A stretch of DNA of 64,000 bases from Corallococcus macrosporus. GTDB lineage: Bacteria > Myxococcota > Myxococcia > Myxococcales > Myxococcaceae. Shown here in pieces: positions 1,452-12,515 of this stretch (positions within the stretch are counted from its first letter, which is position 1; each line of letters opens with the position of its first letter). The notes beneath the pieces were generated by a model. That model was not told the DNA's origin, made no database searches, and saw only the letters and a program-made list of their open reading frames with translations. The position numbers and the translations under genes were made by a program. The stretch lies in the NCBI RefSeq assembly GCF_017302985.1, contig NZ_JAFIMU010000002.1, forward strand, positions 744,001 to 808,000, given 5' to 3'.

Positions 1452-1474
1452 GGCTCTTTCAGGATAGCGGGCCG

Positions 1475-3907
1475 TCAGTCCGCGCGGAGCACGACCGCGG
1501 GGGGCACGTTCGCGGCCCTCCGCGCGGGCAGCAGGGCCGCGAGGAAGGCCACGGCTCCGAGCACCGCCACCACCAGTCCGTAGGTGAGCGGATCCGTGGG
1601 CCGCACCCCGTTGAGCAGGTGTGACAACGCGCGGCTGGCTCCCCACGCGAGCCCCAACCCCAGCACGAGCCCCACCGCCGTGAGCCGCAGGTAGTGGCTC
1701 AACACCATCCCCATGAGCTGGCCCGCTCGCGCTCCCAATGCCATGCGGATGCCCAGCTCGCGCGTGCGCTGCACCACCGCGTAGGCCACCACCCCGTAGA
1801 GCCCCACCGCCGCCAGCACCAGCGCCACGCCCGCGAAGAGGCTCGCCAGCAGCAGATAGAAGCGCAGCGGCGCCACCGTCGCATCCACCACCGACGCCAG
1901 CGTCCGCACGCTGCCCACCGCGAGGTTCGCGTCCATCGCGCGAACCTCCGTGCGCACCGCCCTGGCCAGCGCGAGCGGCTCCCCGGAGGTGCGCAGCACC
2001 AGCGTCATGTCCGTGGAGCGCGCCTGCTCATAGGGCACGTACACCTCCGGCGCGGCGGGCACCGCCAGCCCCTCCGTCGCCAGGTTCGCCACCACCCCCA
2101 CCACCCGGCCCCCGAACGCGCCGTTGCCCCAGTCCATGTCCGTGTCCACGGTGCGGCCCAACGGATCCTCTCCCGGCCAGAAGCGCCGCGCCGCCTCCGC
2201 GTTGATCAACACCGCGCGCCCTCCCGCGCCCCGGTCCTCCGGCAAGAGTCCCCGGCCGCGAAGCACCGGCACGCGCAGCGCCTCCAGCGCCCCCGGCGTG
2301 ACGATGCGGATGCTGGCCTGCCAGGGCTCCGTTCCCGGCGGCACCGGCCGCGTCGGATCGCGCACCGCGAGCGTCCAGCGCTTGCCCTCCATGGGCAGCG
2401 CGTTCACCACGCCCGCGGCCTCCACGCCGGGCAGGGCCCGCAGCCGCTCGAGCAGCGCGTCATAGAACGCCGCGGGCGCCGCGCCGCCAAAGGCATAGCG
2501 GATGGGCGGCAGGTCGAGCTTCACCGTCAACACGCCCTCGGACCGGAAGCCCGGGTCGATGCGCCGCAGGTGCACGAAGCTGCGCAGGAGCAGCCCCGCG
2601 CTCACCAGCAGCAGCACCGCCAGCGCCGTCTCCGCCACGATGAGCGCCGCGCGGGTGCGGTGGTGGTGCGCGGCGCCTCCCGCGCCCTCGCCCGTGGTCC
2701 TGAGCACGCGCGCCAGCTCCACCCGCGACGTCTGCCACGCGGGCACCAGCCCGAAGAGGAGCGTGGTGAACACCGACAGGCCCGCGGTGAACGCCAGCAC
2801 CGTGCCGTCGAGCGACACCTCGTCGATGCGCGGAATGTCCCGGGGCCCGAACGCCGCCAGCGCATCCAGTGCCCACATGGCCGCGAGCAGCCCCGCCACG
2901 CCGCCCAGCACCGACAGGAGCGTGCTCTCCATCAGCAGCTCCCGCGCGATGCGCCCCCGGCTGGCGCCCAACGCCAGACGCACGGACGTCTCTCCCTCGC
3001 GCGACGCGGCCCGCGCCAGCAGGAGGTGCATGAGGTTGGCGCACGCGATGAGCAGCACCAGCCCCACCGCGCCCAGCATCAGCAGCAGCGAGGGGCGCAC
3101 CGGGCCCAGCAGCACGTCGCGCAGCGGCTCCACGCTCGCGCCCATGTCCGCGTTCGTCGCCGGGTACCGCGCCGCCAGGCTCCGCGCCACCGCCGAGGCC
3201 TCCTCCCTCGCCCGCGCGAGGCTCACGCCCGGTGCCAGCCGTCCGTACACCTCCAGCCAGTGCGCGCCGCGCGCCTCCGGCTTCGTCATGGACTCGTCCT
3301 GGACCAGCGGCGTCCACAGCTCCGCGCGCGAGGGGAAGTCGAACCCCGGCGCCATCACGCCCACCACCGTCCACGGCAGGGGCCCGCCCAGGTTCAGCGT
3401 GCGTCCCAGCACGTCCGGGCTGCCGCCAAAGCGGCGCTGCCAGAGCGAATAGGACAGCACCGCGACCTGCGGCGCCCCCGGCGCGTCATCCCCCGCCTGG
3501 AGCGCGCGGCCCAGCTGCACCCGGGGCCCCAGCACCTGGAAGAACCCGGCCGTCACCAGCCCGGCCTGCACCTTCATGGGCGAGGCCTCCGTGCGGTCCG
3601 CGCCGAGCGTCACCATCGCGGGGGCCACGCCGATGAGCCCCTCGAAGGACCGCGTCTGTTCGCGCAGGTCCACCAGGTCCGGCGGCGAGGTGAGCCCCGC
3701 GCCCTGCCGGCCCACGCTGAACAGCCGCACGAGCCGCGCGTCGTCGTGCAGGGGCAACGGCCGCAGCAGCACCGCGTGCACCACGCTGAAGATGGCGACG
3801 TTGGCGCCGATGCCCAGCGCCAGCGTGGCCACCGCCACGACGGTGAAGGTGGGGCTGCCGCGCAGCCGCCGCAGCGCGAGCCGGAGGTCCTGGAGGAGGG
3901 AGGCCAT
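1475..3907 (-). CDS. ADOP-family FtsX/MacB-like permease
   Basis: An 810-residue membrane protein of the orphan duplicated permease type found in Acidobacteria and myxobacteria. It begins with LLQDLRLALRRLRGSPTFT, a first TM helix at about 21-42, then a MacB periplasmic core domain. FtsX-type TM blocks follow near 270-400 (LLLMLGAVGLVLLIACANL), then a second periplasmic domain and a C-terminal FtsX block (residues about 690-800). FtsX/MacB permeases work with an ABC ATPase in lipoprotein release or envelope mechanotransmission; no ATPase gene lies next to it. The Met at 3907 is favoured over 3925 because an AAGG-like site precedes it and it matches the usual N-terminus. It probably leads an operon with the two exported proteins downstream. 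Confidence 0.85.
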   Translation of the reverse strand: MASLLQDLRLALRRLRGSPTFTVVAVATLALGIGANVAIFSVVHAVLLRPLPLHDDARLVRLFSVGRQGAGLTSPPDLVDLREQTRSFEGLIGVAPAMVTLGADRTEASPMKVQAGLVTAGFFQVLGPRVQLGRALQAGDDAPGAPQVAVLSYSLWQRRFGGSPDVLGRTLNLGGPLPWTVVGVMAPGFDFPSRAELWTPLVQDESMTKPEARGAHWLEVYGRLAPGVSLARAREEASAVARSLAARYPATNADMGASVEPLRDVLLGPVRPSLLLMLGAVGLVLLIACANLMHLLLARAASREGETSVRLALGASRGRIARELLMESTLLSVLGGVAGLLAAMWALDALAAFGPRDIPRIDEVSLDGTVLAFTAGLSVFTTLLFGLVPAWQTSRVELARVLRTTGEGAGGAAHHHRTRAALIVAETALAVLLLVSAGLLLRSFVHLRRIDPGFRSEGVLTVKLDLPPIRYAFGGAAPAAFYDALLERLRALPGVEAAGVVNALPMEGKRWTLAVRDPTRPVPPGTEPWQASIRIVTPGALEALRVPVLRGRGLLPEDRGAGGRAVLINAEAARRFWPGEDPLGRTVDTDMDWGNGAFGGRVVGVVANLATEGLAVPAAPEVYVPYEQARSTDMTLVLRTSGEPLALARAVRTEVRAMDANLAVGSVRTLASVVDATVAPLRFYLLLASLFAGVALVLAAVGLYGVVAYAVVQRTRELGIRMALGARAGQLMGMVLSHYLRLTAVGLVLGLGLAWGASRALSHLLNGVRPTDPLTYGLVVAVLGAVAFLAALLPARRAANVPPAVVLRAD

Positions 3908-8919: not shown

Positions 8920-10227
8920 TCAATCCTCCGGGGGCGATGAGGGGCCGACGAAGCGAGCCCTGGGGCGCAGCAGGTGTCCCTGCTCGCGCTGCTCCATCAC
9001 ATGTGCCACCCAGCCCGCCGCGCGCCCCACGGCGAACACCGTCGCGGCGGCGCCCTTGGGCAAGCCCAGCGCCTCCGCCAGCATCACCAGTCCCACCTCC
9101 ATCGACGGCGCGGGATGTCCCCCGTCGCGCATCACCTCCACCAGCGCGGAGCCCACGCGGACCGCTCGCGCGTCCGGGCGCAGCTCCCGCGCGGCGAGGA
9201 TGAGCGGGGGCGTGCGTGGATCTCCCTGGGGATACAGCCGGTGGCCGAAACCCGGCACCGCTTCGCCCCGTTCGAGGTACGTGGCCACCGCCTCCTTCGC
9301 CTGCTCCGGACGGCCCACCTCCGCGAGGAGCGCCTCCACCCGGTCGCACGCGCCCCCGTGTTTCGCGCCGGAGAGCGCCGCCATCGCCGCGCTCACGCAC
9401 GCGTACAGGTCCGCGCCGGAGGAGGCCGTCACCCGGGCGGCGAACGTCGACACGTTCAGCTCATGGTCCGCGCAGAGCACCAGGGCCTGGTTCAACACGG
9501 CGGGAGCGTGTGATGAGCGGGCGTCCCACGCGCGCGCCAGCGAATCCGCCACCGTCCCTTCGCGCAAGGCGAGCTCCACGCGCTCCGGCGCCCGGGCCGC
9601 GCACACCCACGCCGCCAGGTGACGCAGCAGGCTCCGGGCCCGTGCGAGCTCCTGGTCCGGTGGCGCGGCGAAGCGCACCGTGTCCCGTGCGCCCAGCAGG
9701 GACACCAGCGTCGCCAGCACCTCCGCGGGAGGTGTGCCCTGGGGCAGGAGCGCCGCCAGCGCGGAAGGCGGGAAGGGCATGGGCGGCCTGGGCCACGTCG
9801 TGTCCCGCCGCTTCGGCAGCACGCCGGACCAGAGCAGCTCCGCCACGTCCTCGAAGGAGCACCCTTGCGTGGCCAGCTCCACCGCGGAGTGGAGTCCCCG
9901 GTACGCCAGGCCTCGCGCCTCCACGCGCGACACGGCCGAGTCGATGACGGGCTCCCCCCACAGCAGCGCTCCCGCCGCGACCGCCGCGTGTCCCGCTCTT
10001 GCGTCGTGGCGGACCTTCAGCCGCTCCAGGTCCGCGCGCGCGTAGCGGTTCTCCTTCGTTCCCGGCACCGGCACGCACCGCACCAGGCCCCGGCTCACGT
10101 AGGTGTAGAGCGTCGCGAGCTTCACGCCGAGCAGCGCCGCGGCCTCGCTCGCGGACACCAGGGCTTCCTCGCGCTCAGGTCGATGGTCGAATCGAGATTG
10201 AGAGCGTCCACCCCGGCGTCTATCCAT
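8920..10227 (-). CDS. citrate synthase-family protein with N-terminal helix-turn-helix domain
   Basis: A 435-residue fusion. Residues about 24-70 form a MerR/excisionase-type winged HTH (VSASEAAALLGVKLATLYTY, then GLVRCVPVPGTKENRYARADL). The remainder is a citrate synthase fold with conserved active-site segments: CADHELNVSTFAARVTAS (first catalytic His), SGAKHGGA (oxaloacetate-binding His), PGFGHRLYPQGDPR (His and Arg) and a final RARFVGP. Proteins of this type are annotated as citrate synthase with HTH and may act as citrate or methylcitrate synthases, as regulators, or both; which applies is not known. The start at 10227 has a strong AGGAGG 8 nt upstream. The gene is divergent from a methyltransferase over a 104-bp gap with a repeated TGTCGAC motif. 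Confidence 0.85.
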   Translation of the reverse strand: MDRRRGGRSQSRFDHRPEREEALVSASEAAALLGVKLATLYTYVSRGLVRCVPVPGTKENRYARADLERLKVRHDARAGHAAVAAGALLWGEPVIDSAVSRVEARGLAYRGLHSAVELATQGCSFEDVAELLWSGVLPKRRDTTWPRPPMPFPPSALAALLPQGTPPAEVLATLVSLLGARDTVRFAAPPDQELARARSLLRHLAAWVCAARAPERVELALREGTVADSLARAWDARSSHAPAVLNQALVLCADHELNVSTFAARVTASSGADLYACVSAAMAALSGAKHGGACDRVEALLAEVGRPEQAKEAVATYLERGEAVPGFGHRLYPQGDPRTPPLILAARELRPDARAVRVGSALVEVMRDGGHPAPSMEVGLVMLAEALGLPKGAAATVFAVGRAAGWVAHVMEQREQGHLLRPRARFVGPSSPPED

Positions 10228-10253
10228 GATCCACCCACCTCCTGGAAGCAGAG

Positions 10254-10285
10254 TGTCGACGCGGCGCGGACGCGCTGTCGACGTG
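10254..10285. promoter_or_regulatory. repeated TGTCGAC sites in a divergent promoter
   Basis: TGTCGACGCG (10254-10263) and TGTCGACGTG (10276-10285) match at 9 of 10 positions and are spaced 22 bp apart, about two helical turns. Each contains the palindrome GTCGAC. They lie between the start codons of the HTH-citrate synthase (10227) and the methyltransferase (10332). A plausible reading is an operator bound by the HTH domain of the citrate synthase-like protein; this is inference. Confidence 0.4.
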
Positions 10286-10331
10286 TCTTTCCTCATGGAT
10301 GCGTGGAGCCCCGGACACAGGAGGACATGCC

Positions 10332-11108
10332 ATGCAGGTGGACTTTGGCCGCACGTCGGAGGACTACGCCCGGCACCGCGCCGGCTTCCCGGACGCCTTC
10401 TTCGAGCGCCTGCTGCGGGAGGGCGTCTTCCATCCTGGCCAGCGTGTCCTGGACCTGGGCGCGGGCACGGGCACGATCGCGCGGGGACTGGCGAGGCGCG
10501 GGGGCGACGTCACCGCGCTCGACCTCTCCGCGTCCATGCTGGACTCGGCCCGGCGGCTTGCTCACGAGGAGGGGCTGACCATCGACTTCCGCGTGGCGCC
10601 CGCGGAGCGGACCGGGCTGCCTTCGGGCGCCTTCGGGCTGGTGACGGCCGGCACGTGCTGGCACTGGTTCGACCGCGCCGCCGCGGCCCGCGAGGCCTTC
10701 CGGGTGCTGGCGCCCGGGGGACGGCTGGTCATCGCGCACTTCGACTGGCTGCCCTTGCCGGGCAACGTCGTGGAGGTCGTCCACACCCTCATCGACACCT
10801 TCAATCCCTCACAGGTCGCGCCCTACGTCAGCTTCGGGCACGACGCGGGCATCTACCCGCGCTGGTTCGCGGACGCCGCCTCGGCGGGCTTCACCGGCCT
10901 GGAGTCCTTCACCTTCGACACCGTCGTCCATTACTCGCATGAGGCGTGGATGGGCCGGGTGCGGGCCAGCGCGAAGGTGGGGCCGGTGCTGCCTCCGGAC
11001 GCCGCCGCGCGCTTCGACGTCGCGCACGCGAAGCTCCTCGAGGAGCGCTTCCCGGACGCACCGCTCGCCGTGCCCCACCGCGTGTTCGCCTTGCTGGCCA
11101 CGCGCTGA
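10332..11108 (+). CDS. class I SAM-dependent methyltransferase
   Basis: A 258-residue Methyltransf_11-type enzyme. Motif I is VLDLGAGTGTIARGLARRG near residue 40, followed by VTALDLSASML (acidic residue for the SAM ribose) and the later strand FGLVTAGTCWHWFDR, a pattern seen in small-molecule methyltransferases of this family. The start at 10332 is preceded by AGGAGG at the right distance; the longer frame starting at 10299 is rejected. It is divergent from the HTH-citrate synthase and may share its operator. The substrate cannot be deduced. Confidence 0.85.
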   Translation: MQVDFGRTSEDYARHRAGFPDAFFERLLREGVFHPGQRVLDLGAGTGTIARGLARRGGDVTALDLSASMLDSARRLAHEEGLTIDFRVAPAERTGLPSGAFGLVTAGTCWHWFDRAAAAREAFRVLAPGGRLVIAHFDWLPLPGNVVEVVHTLIDTFNPSQVAPYVSFGHDAGIYPRWFADAASAGFTGLESFTFDTVVHYSHEAWMGRVRASAKVGPVLPPDAAARFDVAHAKLLEERFPDAPLAVPHRVFALLATR

Positions 11109-11177: not shown

Positions 11178-12515
11178 ATGGGCATCTCATTGGACCGTCG
11201 CTCCCTCATCCAGGCCAGCCTGGGTTTGACCGGAGGGCTCGCGCTCCTCCGGGGCTCTCCGGCCAGCGCGGCGGGACGGCCGTCCACGAATGCTACCGCC
11301 GCCGAGGAGCCCCGGCCCTGGTGGGAGCTGGGGTTGATGGCGGACCCCATCATGGAGAGCCAGCTCCTGCACTTCCTGGCGGGGACCTACAGCGCCCAGT
11401 CGGACATCAGCGAGGTGCTGGACACCGCGACCCGCATCGTCGCGGGGGATGACTGGAGCTGGCCCAACGAGTGGGTCCGCACCGCCGACCGCATCCGCGC
11501 CATGGGCGACACGAGCCTGGCCCGCCGTCACCCCATCAGCGCGGGCAATGCCTACCTGCGCGCCGCCAACTACTACCGCGCCGCGCTCATCCACCACCCG
11601 GAGCCCACCCACCCGAGCGTGGTCGCCACCGGGCGCAAGGCGGTGGACGCCTACAACAAGGCGCTCCCGCTGCTGAGGATTCCGGGCACGCCCGTGCGCA
11701 TCCCGTACGAGGGCACCACGCTGCCCGGCTACTTCTTCCGCGCCCCGAGCGCCCGGAGCATCGCGCCGCTGCTCATCTTCCAGCAGGGCCGCGACGCGTG
11801 GCCGGAGGAGTCCAAGTACGTCATCGACGCGGCGCTCGCGCGCGGCTACCACTGCCTCATCGTGCACGCGCCCGGCCAGGGCATGGCCATCCGCGAGCAG
11901 GGGCTGCCCTTCCGCCACGACTGGGAGAACGTCATCCGGCCGGTGGTGGACTTCGCGCTGTGCATCGCGGGCGTGGACTCGCGGCGCATCGCGCTCCTGG
12001 GCTGGAGCATGGGCGGCGCCCTGGTGCCGCGCGCCGCCGCGTTCGAGCGGCGCATCAAGATCCTCATCCCCAACCCCGGCGTCCTTAACTGGGGCGATTC
12101 CTCCTTCGAGCAGTTCAACATGTACTTCCCGGAGGTGATGCCGCTGCTCGACAGCGACCCCCAGGCCTTCGACGCGGCCATGGCGCAGCTCATGGAGCAG
12201 GTGTTCCTCTACCGCTGGTACATGAAGGACTCGATGTCCAAGCACGGCGTCAGCACGCCGTCGGCCCTGCTCTTCGAGCTGCGCCGGTTCAACAACGAGC
12301 CTGTCGTCCACCGCATCCGCTGCCGCACGCTGGTGATGGATGGCACCGCGGAGGCCTTCTCCCAGGGCCAGGCCCAGCTGCTCTTCGACGCGCTGGAGTG
12401 CCCGAAGGACTACATGCTCTTCACCGCCGGGGACACGGGGCTCTTGCACTGCCAGGAGGGCGCGCAGGCCGTCGCCAACCACCGGATGTTCGACTGGCTG
12501 GACGAGTACCTCTAG
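11178..12515 (+). CDS. Tat-exported alpha/beta hydrolase
   Basis: A 445-residue hydrolase of the FrsA / 2,6-dihydropseudooxynicotine-hydrolase-like group. The N-terminus DRRSLIQASLGLTGGLALL is a twin-arginine signal peptide with cleavage near ASAAG. A helical cap domain (about 45-165) precedes the alpha/beta core (YEGTTLPGYFFRAP, PLLIFQQGRDAW). The nucleophile elbow is GWSMGG with Ser277; the acid is probably the Asp in LVMDGTAEAF and the base the His in TGLLHCQEG. Export suggests it attacks an external ester or C-C substrate. It ends in a CTAG shared with the stop of tyrA on the other strand. Confidence 0.8.
   Translation: MGISLDRRSLIQASLGLTGGLALLRGSPASAAGRPSTNATAAEEPRPWWELGLMADPIMESQLLHFLAGTYSAQSDISEVLDTATRIVAGDDWSWPNEWVRTADRIRAMGDTSLARRHPISAGNAYLRAANYYRAALIHHPEPTHPSVVATGRKAVDAYNKALPLLRIPGTPVRIPYEGTTLPGYFFRAPSARSIAPLLIFQQGRDAWPEESKYVIDAALARGYHCLIVHAPGQGMAIREQGLPFRHDWENVIRPVVDFALCIAGVDSRRIALLGWSMGGALVPRAAAFERRIKILIPNPGVLNWGDSSFEQFNMYFPEVMPLLDSDPQAFDAAMAQLMEQVFLYRWYMKDSMSKHGVSTPSALLFELRRFNNEPVVHRIRCRTLVMDGTAEAFSQGQAQLLFDALECPKDYMLFTAGDTGLLHCQEGAQAVANHRMFDWLDEYL

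Follow-up and report, generated by a model that had tools for sequence, protein, structure and literature searches.

A winged-helix protein built on a citrate synthase fold as a probable one-component regulator of its own divergent promoter

The question raised by this Corallococcus locus is what a DNA-binding domain is doing on a citrate synthase fold, and which DNA it might read. The window, i.e. the whole 64 000-nucleotide stretch that was analysed (G000:C2:744001-808000), is part of a 9.8-Mb genome; in it, the fusion gene (HTH-CS hereafter) faces a methyltransferase gene across a short divergent promoter. A preliminary description had proposed a metabolic trigger enzyme with an intact active site, regulating itself and the methyltransferase through repeated TGTCGAC sites, and had made this proposal depend on conservation of the sites upstream of orthologues. 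The reading at which we arrived, and which sequence comparison renders very likely, is that HTH-CS is a dedicated one-component regulator acting at its own divergent promoter, with the citrate synthase (CS) domain as sensor, and that it controls itself and the divergent gene.

The HTH-CS coding sequence occupies 8920..10227 on the minus strand and specifies 435 amino acids from an ATG at 10227; it was delimited by Pfam and by alignment of starts, an ATG aligned with 10227 being found in all Myxococcaceae loci L002-L047. The start given by the ORF tool (ATG 10296) was rejected: besides the window's own copies, it is common to L005 and L007 only, and it would also place both promoter sites within the coding sequence. 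The product matches Citrate_synt (2.5e-70), HTH_17 (3e-6) and MerR_1 (7.4e-5). Its type-II CS domain of about 335 residues (8959..9963, minus strand) scores 237.8 bits against PF00285, the gathering cut-off of which is 27, and a Foldseek search with the full model returned citrate and methylcitrate synthases, ranks 1-4 all being one methylcitrate synthase, 3hwk. The MerR/BldC/Xis-type winged HTH (residues 23-77; 9997..10161, minus strand) is N-terminal. In the AF2 model of the full protein (mean pLDDT 89.8, pTM 0.80) two helices (26-33, 37-45) and two strands (51-53, 60-63) make up this domain, and the fusion of a winged HTH to a citrate synthase fold is thus borne out by both Pfam and AF2. 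The HTH modelled alone had a mean pLDDT of 73.1 and retrieved Xis, BldC and SoxR with a probability of 1.00 but weakly (E at least 0.04); its assignment to the MerR-type winged HTHs comes from the HTH_17 and MerR_1 profiles and the AF2 fold, with weak Foldseek support. The protein falls outside the classical MerR family, since a CS domain stands where the C-terminal coiled coil and effector would be, and outside the BldC family, whose stand-alone winged HTH has about 68 residues whereas this one is fused to the CS domain. Residues T39, L40, Y41, Y43, S45, R46 and G47 are invariant in 30 chosen HTH sequences. Within the HTH, conservation peaks at the recognition helix (motif TLYxYVSRG), which in the rows compared hardly varies from phylum to phylum, in keeping with a constant operator.

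The active site was judged on the residues that we take to be catalytic (His274, His320 and Asp375, pig numbering) and on those that we take to bind oxaloacetate. The window protein equals the genome's own plain CS at six of the seven positions checked; alignment of the two places Glu377 (codon 9097..9099, minus strand) at the position of the catalytic Asp375. The full catalytic and oxaloacetate-binding set is therefore incomplete, and the active site earlier called intact is so at all the checked positions but this one. Glu occurs there in 14 of the 88 rows of the Myxococcota set (the 8 rows of the window clade plus duplicates), the other 74 having Asp, as do all 66 rows of other groups (duplicate loci included). 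Across 154 protein rows H238, H274, R329 and R401 are invariant and R421 varies by 2 gaps only; His320 is replaced by Ala in L183, L185 and L186 and by Gln in two other rows. None of the NCBIfam citrate synthase models matched by the window protein was over its cut-off. The plain type-II CS of L074 likewise has Glu at this position, as has 2c6x, the 'citrate synthase 1' of B. subtilis, and we reject the replacement as proof of a dead enzyme. Given the Asp-to-Glu change in the window clade, 'regulator with enzyme-derived sensor' is a safer label than 'trigger enzyme'.

The divergent promoter region between HTH-CS and the methyltransferase gene spans 104 bp (10228..10331), and the two TGTCGACGYG-type sites reported for it are indeed there, TGTCGACGCG at 10254..10263 and TGTCGACGTG at 10276..10285, both on the plus strand and 22 bp apart. 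A simple sigma-70 scan of 10150-10400 found no promoter. Enrichment over chance was discarded as evidence for the sites, in the window (TGTCGAC found 9 times versus 10.2 expected) as in the genome (59 occurrences of YGTCGA-N15/16-YGTCGA versus 80 for a control pattern). As the pair is not above chance by sequence alone, only conservation can give it meaning. This was assessed in 65 distinct promoters, representing 80 Myxococcaceae HTH-CS rows; loci L114-L143, which are matches to the TGTCGA pattern in the own genome, were excluded from promoter analyses. A strict pair was found in 38 of the 65 (mean 0.06 and maximum 1 in dinucleotide shuffles) and a loose one, defined after the sequences had been seen, in 64 (mean 0.35, maximum 2 in shuffles). 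The sites are thus conserved upstream of orthologues, the condition on which the preliminary description had made its proposal depend. In 62 of the 64 promoters with a loose pair the first site lies 23-27 bp 5' of the HTH-CS ATG; L156 and L166 hold the usual sites too, but there the first hit of the loose pattern is at another place, and the one promoter failing the pattern (L167) has a different spacing. The pair is kept with a methyltransferase, a cupin or another gene as divergent partner, which argues that it belongs to HTH-CS.

A stronger element, absent from the preliminary description, is shared by HTH-CS genes of several phyla outside the main Myxococcaceae set, where it lies 5' of the gene and mostly outside the coding region: TCAAYNTTGAT-N6/7-ATCAAY. 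TTGAT-N6-ATCAA was present in 41 of 73 such loci and the N7 form in 10 (shuffle means 0.05 and 0.1, respectively; L184 and L187, which hold partial HTH-CS genes, were excluded from all operator counts). Over the 14 fixed letters of the operator there were no mismatches in 50 loci, one in 8 and two in 4, so that 62 of the 73 have at most two, compared with 0 of 73 control stretches of 450 nt, one cut from the distal end of each locus. These loci are partly non-independent and HTH-CS proteins were therefore clustered; at 90% identity the operator was found in 57 of 67 clusters, and at 70% in 38 of 47. Five of the remaining 11 loci (L057, L059, L078, L081 and L113) do possess a perfect copy, 1.06-2.2 kb upstream, between HTH-CS and a plain CS gene that it faces. 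On the HTH-CS strand this copy is followed by 322-636 codons free of stops, which gives HTH-CS the look of a later gene in an operon behind the distant operator. The best match has 5 mismatches in L070 and three in each of L182 and L183, and no operator with up to two mismatches was present in the roughly 3 kb searched per locus for L053, L054 and L060. In L055, two copies on opposite strands occupy the gap between the plain CS and HTH-CS genes (1510-1588).

The pattern was derived from these loci and its presence there is circular; its near-uniqueness in genomes is not. Among 30 genomes with HTH-CS, TCAAYNTTGATN6-7ATCAAY has 30 sites in 29 genomes (reversed control 0), of which 29 are at the HTH-CS locus and one elsewhere (G161). 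A blind forward search, which went from DNA to protein and is not circular, was carried out in 398 evenly drawn genomes of the phylum of L091 (Pseudomonadota) and yielded 62 sites in 59 genomes (control 2). When the 61 sites other than the known one of L091 were examined, an HTH-CS gene adjoined 40 of them (29 nucleotide clusters), in all 40 cases on the same strand and with a median distance of 5 bp from the operator end to the predicted first HTH-CS codon (range -43 to 48). A second CS gene is present in 32 of these 40 loci and prpB in 4 (either one in 33). No HTH-CS gene was seen near the other 21 sites and the motif is therefore not exclusive to HTH-CS loci. The operator was also found on plasmids, in a check of 2 of the 222 matching records from a protein search: on pAt of Agrobacterium fabrum C58, where ATU_RS25370 faces ATU_RS25365, and on a plasmid of Azospirillum thermophilum, where HTH-CS faces a CoA transferase. 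On pAt (L257, 2884-2980) ATU_RS25370 as annotated reaches through the operator into the start of the divergent CS gene; translation more likely begins at ATG 2980. No sign of a wider regulon came from the two off-locus matches, G045:C8:395005 (L194) and G161:C7:384457 (L195), whose neighbouring ORFs show no clear link with citrate metabolism.

How is this element related to the window, where the TGTCGAC pair had drawn attention? In the Myxococcaceae translation of HTH-CS begins further 5', and a GC-rich form of the operator occupies codons 9-16. Those of the window gene (TCT CAA TCT CGA TTC GAC CAT CGA, for SQSRFDHR; 10180..10201, minus strand) can be read as TCAA-TC-TCGAT-TCGACC-ATCGA, i.e. 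TCAATCTCGAT-TCGACC-ATCGA, and are the single match to TCAAYNTYGATN5-7ATCRA in the 9.8-Mb genome (control 0). The second HTH-CS gene of this genome (copy A, L002) is unmatched because its last half-site differs. By means of a QSRF or PSRL motif, 61 of the 65 distinct Myxococcaceae genes could be placed (L022, L046, L158 and L166 carry variants); TCAAYNTYGA is present in 59 of the 61 and the full pattern in 33, the third half-site being often changed. The exact 16-base core CTCAATCTCGATTCGA has 48 sites in 39 of 91 family genomes (control 0), 47 of them at HTH-CS starts and one elsewhere (G045:C8, L194); the 52 genomes without it include some without HTH-CS and some with variant sites. Intermediates link the two forms of the operator: TCAACGTTGATTCGACAATCCA in L175, TCAACGTGGATTCGACAATCAA in L172, TCCATCTGGATTCGACAATCCA in L182 and TCAATCTCGATTCGACCATCGA in the window. 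The sites of the preliminary description are thus truly conserved, though within Myxococcaceae, of which the TGTCGAC pair is a feature, while the widely conserved operator is the other element, intragenic here. On the HTH-CS strand the TGTCGA element is made of TCGA units, of which the window clade has lost the middle ones and kept the outer two, the sites of the preliminary description; this element may have descended from the operator.

The intragenic operator is written in rare codons that hardly vary. Among rows having the residue in question, Ser9 is TCT in 54 of 54, Gln10 is CAA in 63 of 63, Ser11 is TCT in 98% of 62 and Arg12 is CGA in 98% of 65. In the background, formed by the rest of the HTH-CS genes and the neighbouring methyltransferase genes (GC3 0.89), TCT accounts for 78 of 2152 Ser codons (3.6%), CAA for 104 of 786 Gln codons (13.2%) and CGA for 314 of 4122 Arg codons (7.6%). 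Only 10 of 274 conserved-residue columns prefer an A/T-ending codon, and a preference of at least 98% is confined to codons 9-12; GC3 is 0.572 over codons 1-24 versus 0.89 elsewhere. Residues 1-18 have a pLDDT under 50 in the AF2 model and are predicted to be disordered, which fits a peptide dictated by DNA. The whole resembles a regulatory site captured by a reading frame.

The partner across the divergent promoter is far less constant. In the window it is a class-I SAM methyltransferase (10332..11108, plus strand; Methyltransf_11, 3.5e-23), for which the 25 NCBIfam models listed (of 36) all stayed below their cut-offs. An alpha/beta-hydrolase gene follows on the same strand about 70 bp further 3' (11178-12515, plus strand), possibly co-transcribed with it; in copy-A loci of the same genus (e.g. 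L149-L152) the gene next after the methyltransferase is a cupin gene. Besides an ordinary Citrate_synt gene (L001) and the window gene, the genome holds a third and last one, copy A (G000:C7), with HTH-CS at 1471-2772 (minus strand) and a divergent methyltransferase at 2874-3653 (plus strand). Copy A has Asp at the catalytic position and its promoter holds TCTCGACTCG...TGTCGAGTTG. In a tree of 72 proteins the window gene belongs to a clade of 8 same-genus rows (100/100), all of the Glu377 type, apart from the 16 copy-A rows of the genus; the tree does not place the two clades as sisters, and the window clade may have arisen by a recent duplication, by an older one followed by loss, or by transfer.

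Partners in other phyla were surveyed in 66 loci (L048-L113), from a sample of the best 80 of 270 relatives that leans to close ones. On the divergent side, 41 loci carry a plain CS gene (preceded in some by one or two others), 12 carry prpB followed by a CS gene, 3 an HMGL/homocitrate-synthase-like gene, 2 a cupin gene and 1 a methyltransferase gene, and in 7 no partner was recognised by the queries used; another CS gene is therefore found there in 53 of the 66. The 12 loci flanked by prpB, among these best 80 of 270 relatives, are all from Xanthomonadaceae, and NCBIfam equivalogs confirmed PrpB and PrpC over cut-off in L091 only. Re-citrate synthase genes are often annotated as homocitrate synthase, according to a passage of PMC12016533, and the HMGL-like partners (L063, L068 and L084) may be Re-citrate synthases; HMGL superfamily membership was found for L063 only. 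The HMGL-like gene of L084, whose record is titled as a Klebsiella pneumoniae MAG, is 87% identical to that of the Deltaproteobacteria MAG L068, and the species label looks like a binning error. The methyltransferase is thus a replaceable partner, with a plain citrate/methylcitrate synthase gene the commonest one in other phyla. The preliminary proposal that a DNA-binding citrate synthase regulates itself and its divergent gene has good support from these comparisons.

The mechanism that we infer, from DNA binding and ligand to the dimer and the sign of control, would be as follows. The winged HTH would recognise an operator at the divergent promoter of its own gene. In most phyla this is TCAAYNTTGAT-N6/7-ATCAAY, directly 5' of the coding sequence; in Myxococcaceae it is the GC-rich form within codons 9-16, together with the upstream TGTCGA pair. 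HTH-CS would in this way regulate its own gene and the divergent one. The putative sensor is the (methyl)citrate synthase domain, with its oxaloacetate-binding residues kept. Ligand binding closes the domains of citrate synthase, and binding of oxaloacetate, acyl-CoA or (methyl)citrate could move the two HTHs in a dimer relative to each other. Since the commonest divergent gene is a citrate/methylcitrate synthase gene, the regulator would be sensing what enters or leaves the very reaction under its control. The Myxococcaceae would represent a variant with a methyltransferase, cupin or other gene as presumed target, including one Corallococcus clade with Glu377. Repression is our guess, because the operator abuts or overlaps the gene start.

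Several other explanations bear on the same data. A trigger enzyme proper, that is, a working (methyl)citrate synthase which also binds DNA and couples catalysis to regulation, is possible but rather unlikely. The binding residues are kept, the catalytic Asp is present in 74 of 88 Myxococcota-set rows and in 66 of 66 others, and Glu need not abolish activity, as the plain CS of L074 and 2c6x illustrate; yet His320 has become Ala in three loci (L183, L185 and L186) and Gln in two other rows, the window clade has Glu, the activity would be redundant in the 53 of 66 loci with another CS gene on the divergent side, and no matched NCBIfam citrate synthase model was over its cut-off. It is very improbable that HTH-CS is an ordinary isozyme whose winged HTH has drifted to a structural or oligomerisation role next to the DNA element of an unrelated regulator. 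Such an isozyme would account for the well-conserved CS domain and for the usual public annotation as 'citrate synthase family protein' (among the plasmid matches listed), but neither for the recognition helix, where conservation of the HTH between phyla is highest, nor for a DNA element that follows the HTH-CS gene, on its strand, through changes of partner and of phylum.

The near-invariant 5' codons might alternatively be a translational or RNA element (a rare-codon ramp, an RNA structure or a small-RNA site) instead of protein-binding DNA, and the generally lower GC3 of codons 1-24 (0.572 versus 0.89) is in keeping with this. We give this explanation the least credence, since the element recurs in other phyla ahead of the HTH codons, where it is mostly non-coding, while in Myxococcaceae exact codons are conserved, beyond mere low GC, over a part of the protein (residues 1-18) that AF2 predicts to be disordered. 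The operator could also be read by another factor that tracks the HTH-CS locus.

We return to the preferred reading, a dedicated regulator with a CS-derived sensor. If autoregulators of this kind are defined by a winged HTH-CS fusion and by the operator, or a derivative of it, at their own divergent promoter, the window gene is one of them. Beyond this locus, it seems probable that HTH-CS forms one widespread one-component family in which a (methyl)citrate synthase pocket has been turned into the sensor for a citrate- or propionate-entry gene, and that its nearly genome-unique operator, conserved from Chloroflexi through to Proteobacteria, has outlasted exchange of the target for unrelated genes and has been overrun by the start codon in Myxococcaceae, where it yields the peptide SQSRFDH. 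For several phyla this amounts to a prediction, at the level of base pairs, of where a CS-derived regulator binds and which gene it controls, and it opens a way to study bacterial sensing of oxaloacetate, acyl-CoA or (methyl)citrate at the entrance to the TCA and methylcitrate cycles. For genes now labelled 'citrate synthase family protein' a new annotation as regulators may be in order, and HTH-CS operators could serve as metabolite sensors.

The fusion itself is already in public annotation, mostly under that name (among the 20 plasmid rows listed), and no paper on an HTH-citrate synthase regulator was found by title among the matches listed, in a search covering mainly the openly accessible literature. 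The nearest concept is that of trigger or moonlighting enzymes, of which CitA of Caulobacter is the citrate synthase case: passages of PMC7083601 describe a citrate synthase with a catalysis-independent role in the cell cycle, and like HTH-CS it is a citrate synthase homologue put to regulatory use. It differs in that these passages describe no operator binding by CitA, and the term 'helix-turn-helix' has 0 occurrences in the text of that article. The same source reports that CitB complements E. coli gltA and CitC does not; citB and citC are consecutive (CCNA_03757/03758) and may be a plain-CS/HTH-CS pair. With BldC and the MerR-type regulators, HTH-CS shares the HTH_17 and MerR_1 profiles, weak Foldseek matches (BldC, SoxR) and an operator of repeated half-sites. 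BldC (PMC5859096) is a stand-alone winged HTH of about 68 residues that sits head-to-tail on direct repeats; the sensor of HTH-CS is a full CS domain, in contrast to the coiled coil plus effector of classical MerR proteins or the lack of any further domain in BldC. PrpC and the type-II citrate synthases (3hwk, 6s6f and 3tqg) have the same fold and agree at six of the seven active-site positions checked, and to these HTH-CS adds the N-terminal winged HTH, the divergent operator and, in the window clade, Glu for the catalytic Asp. PrpR, the regulator of the enterobacterial prp operon, is a sigma-54 activator of another architecture; HTH-CS takes the place of the divergent regulator beside prpB in the 12 Xanthomonadaceae loci.
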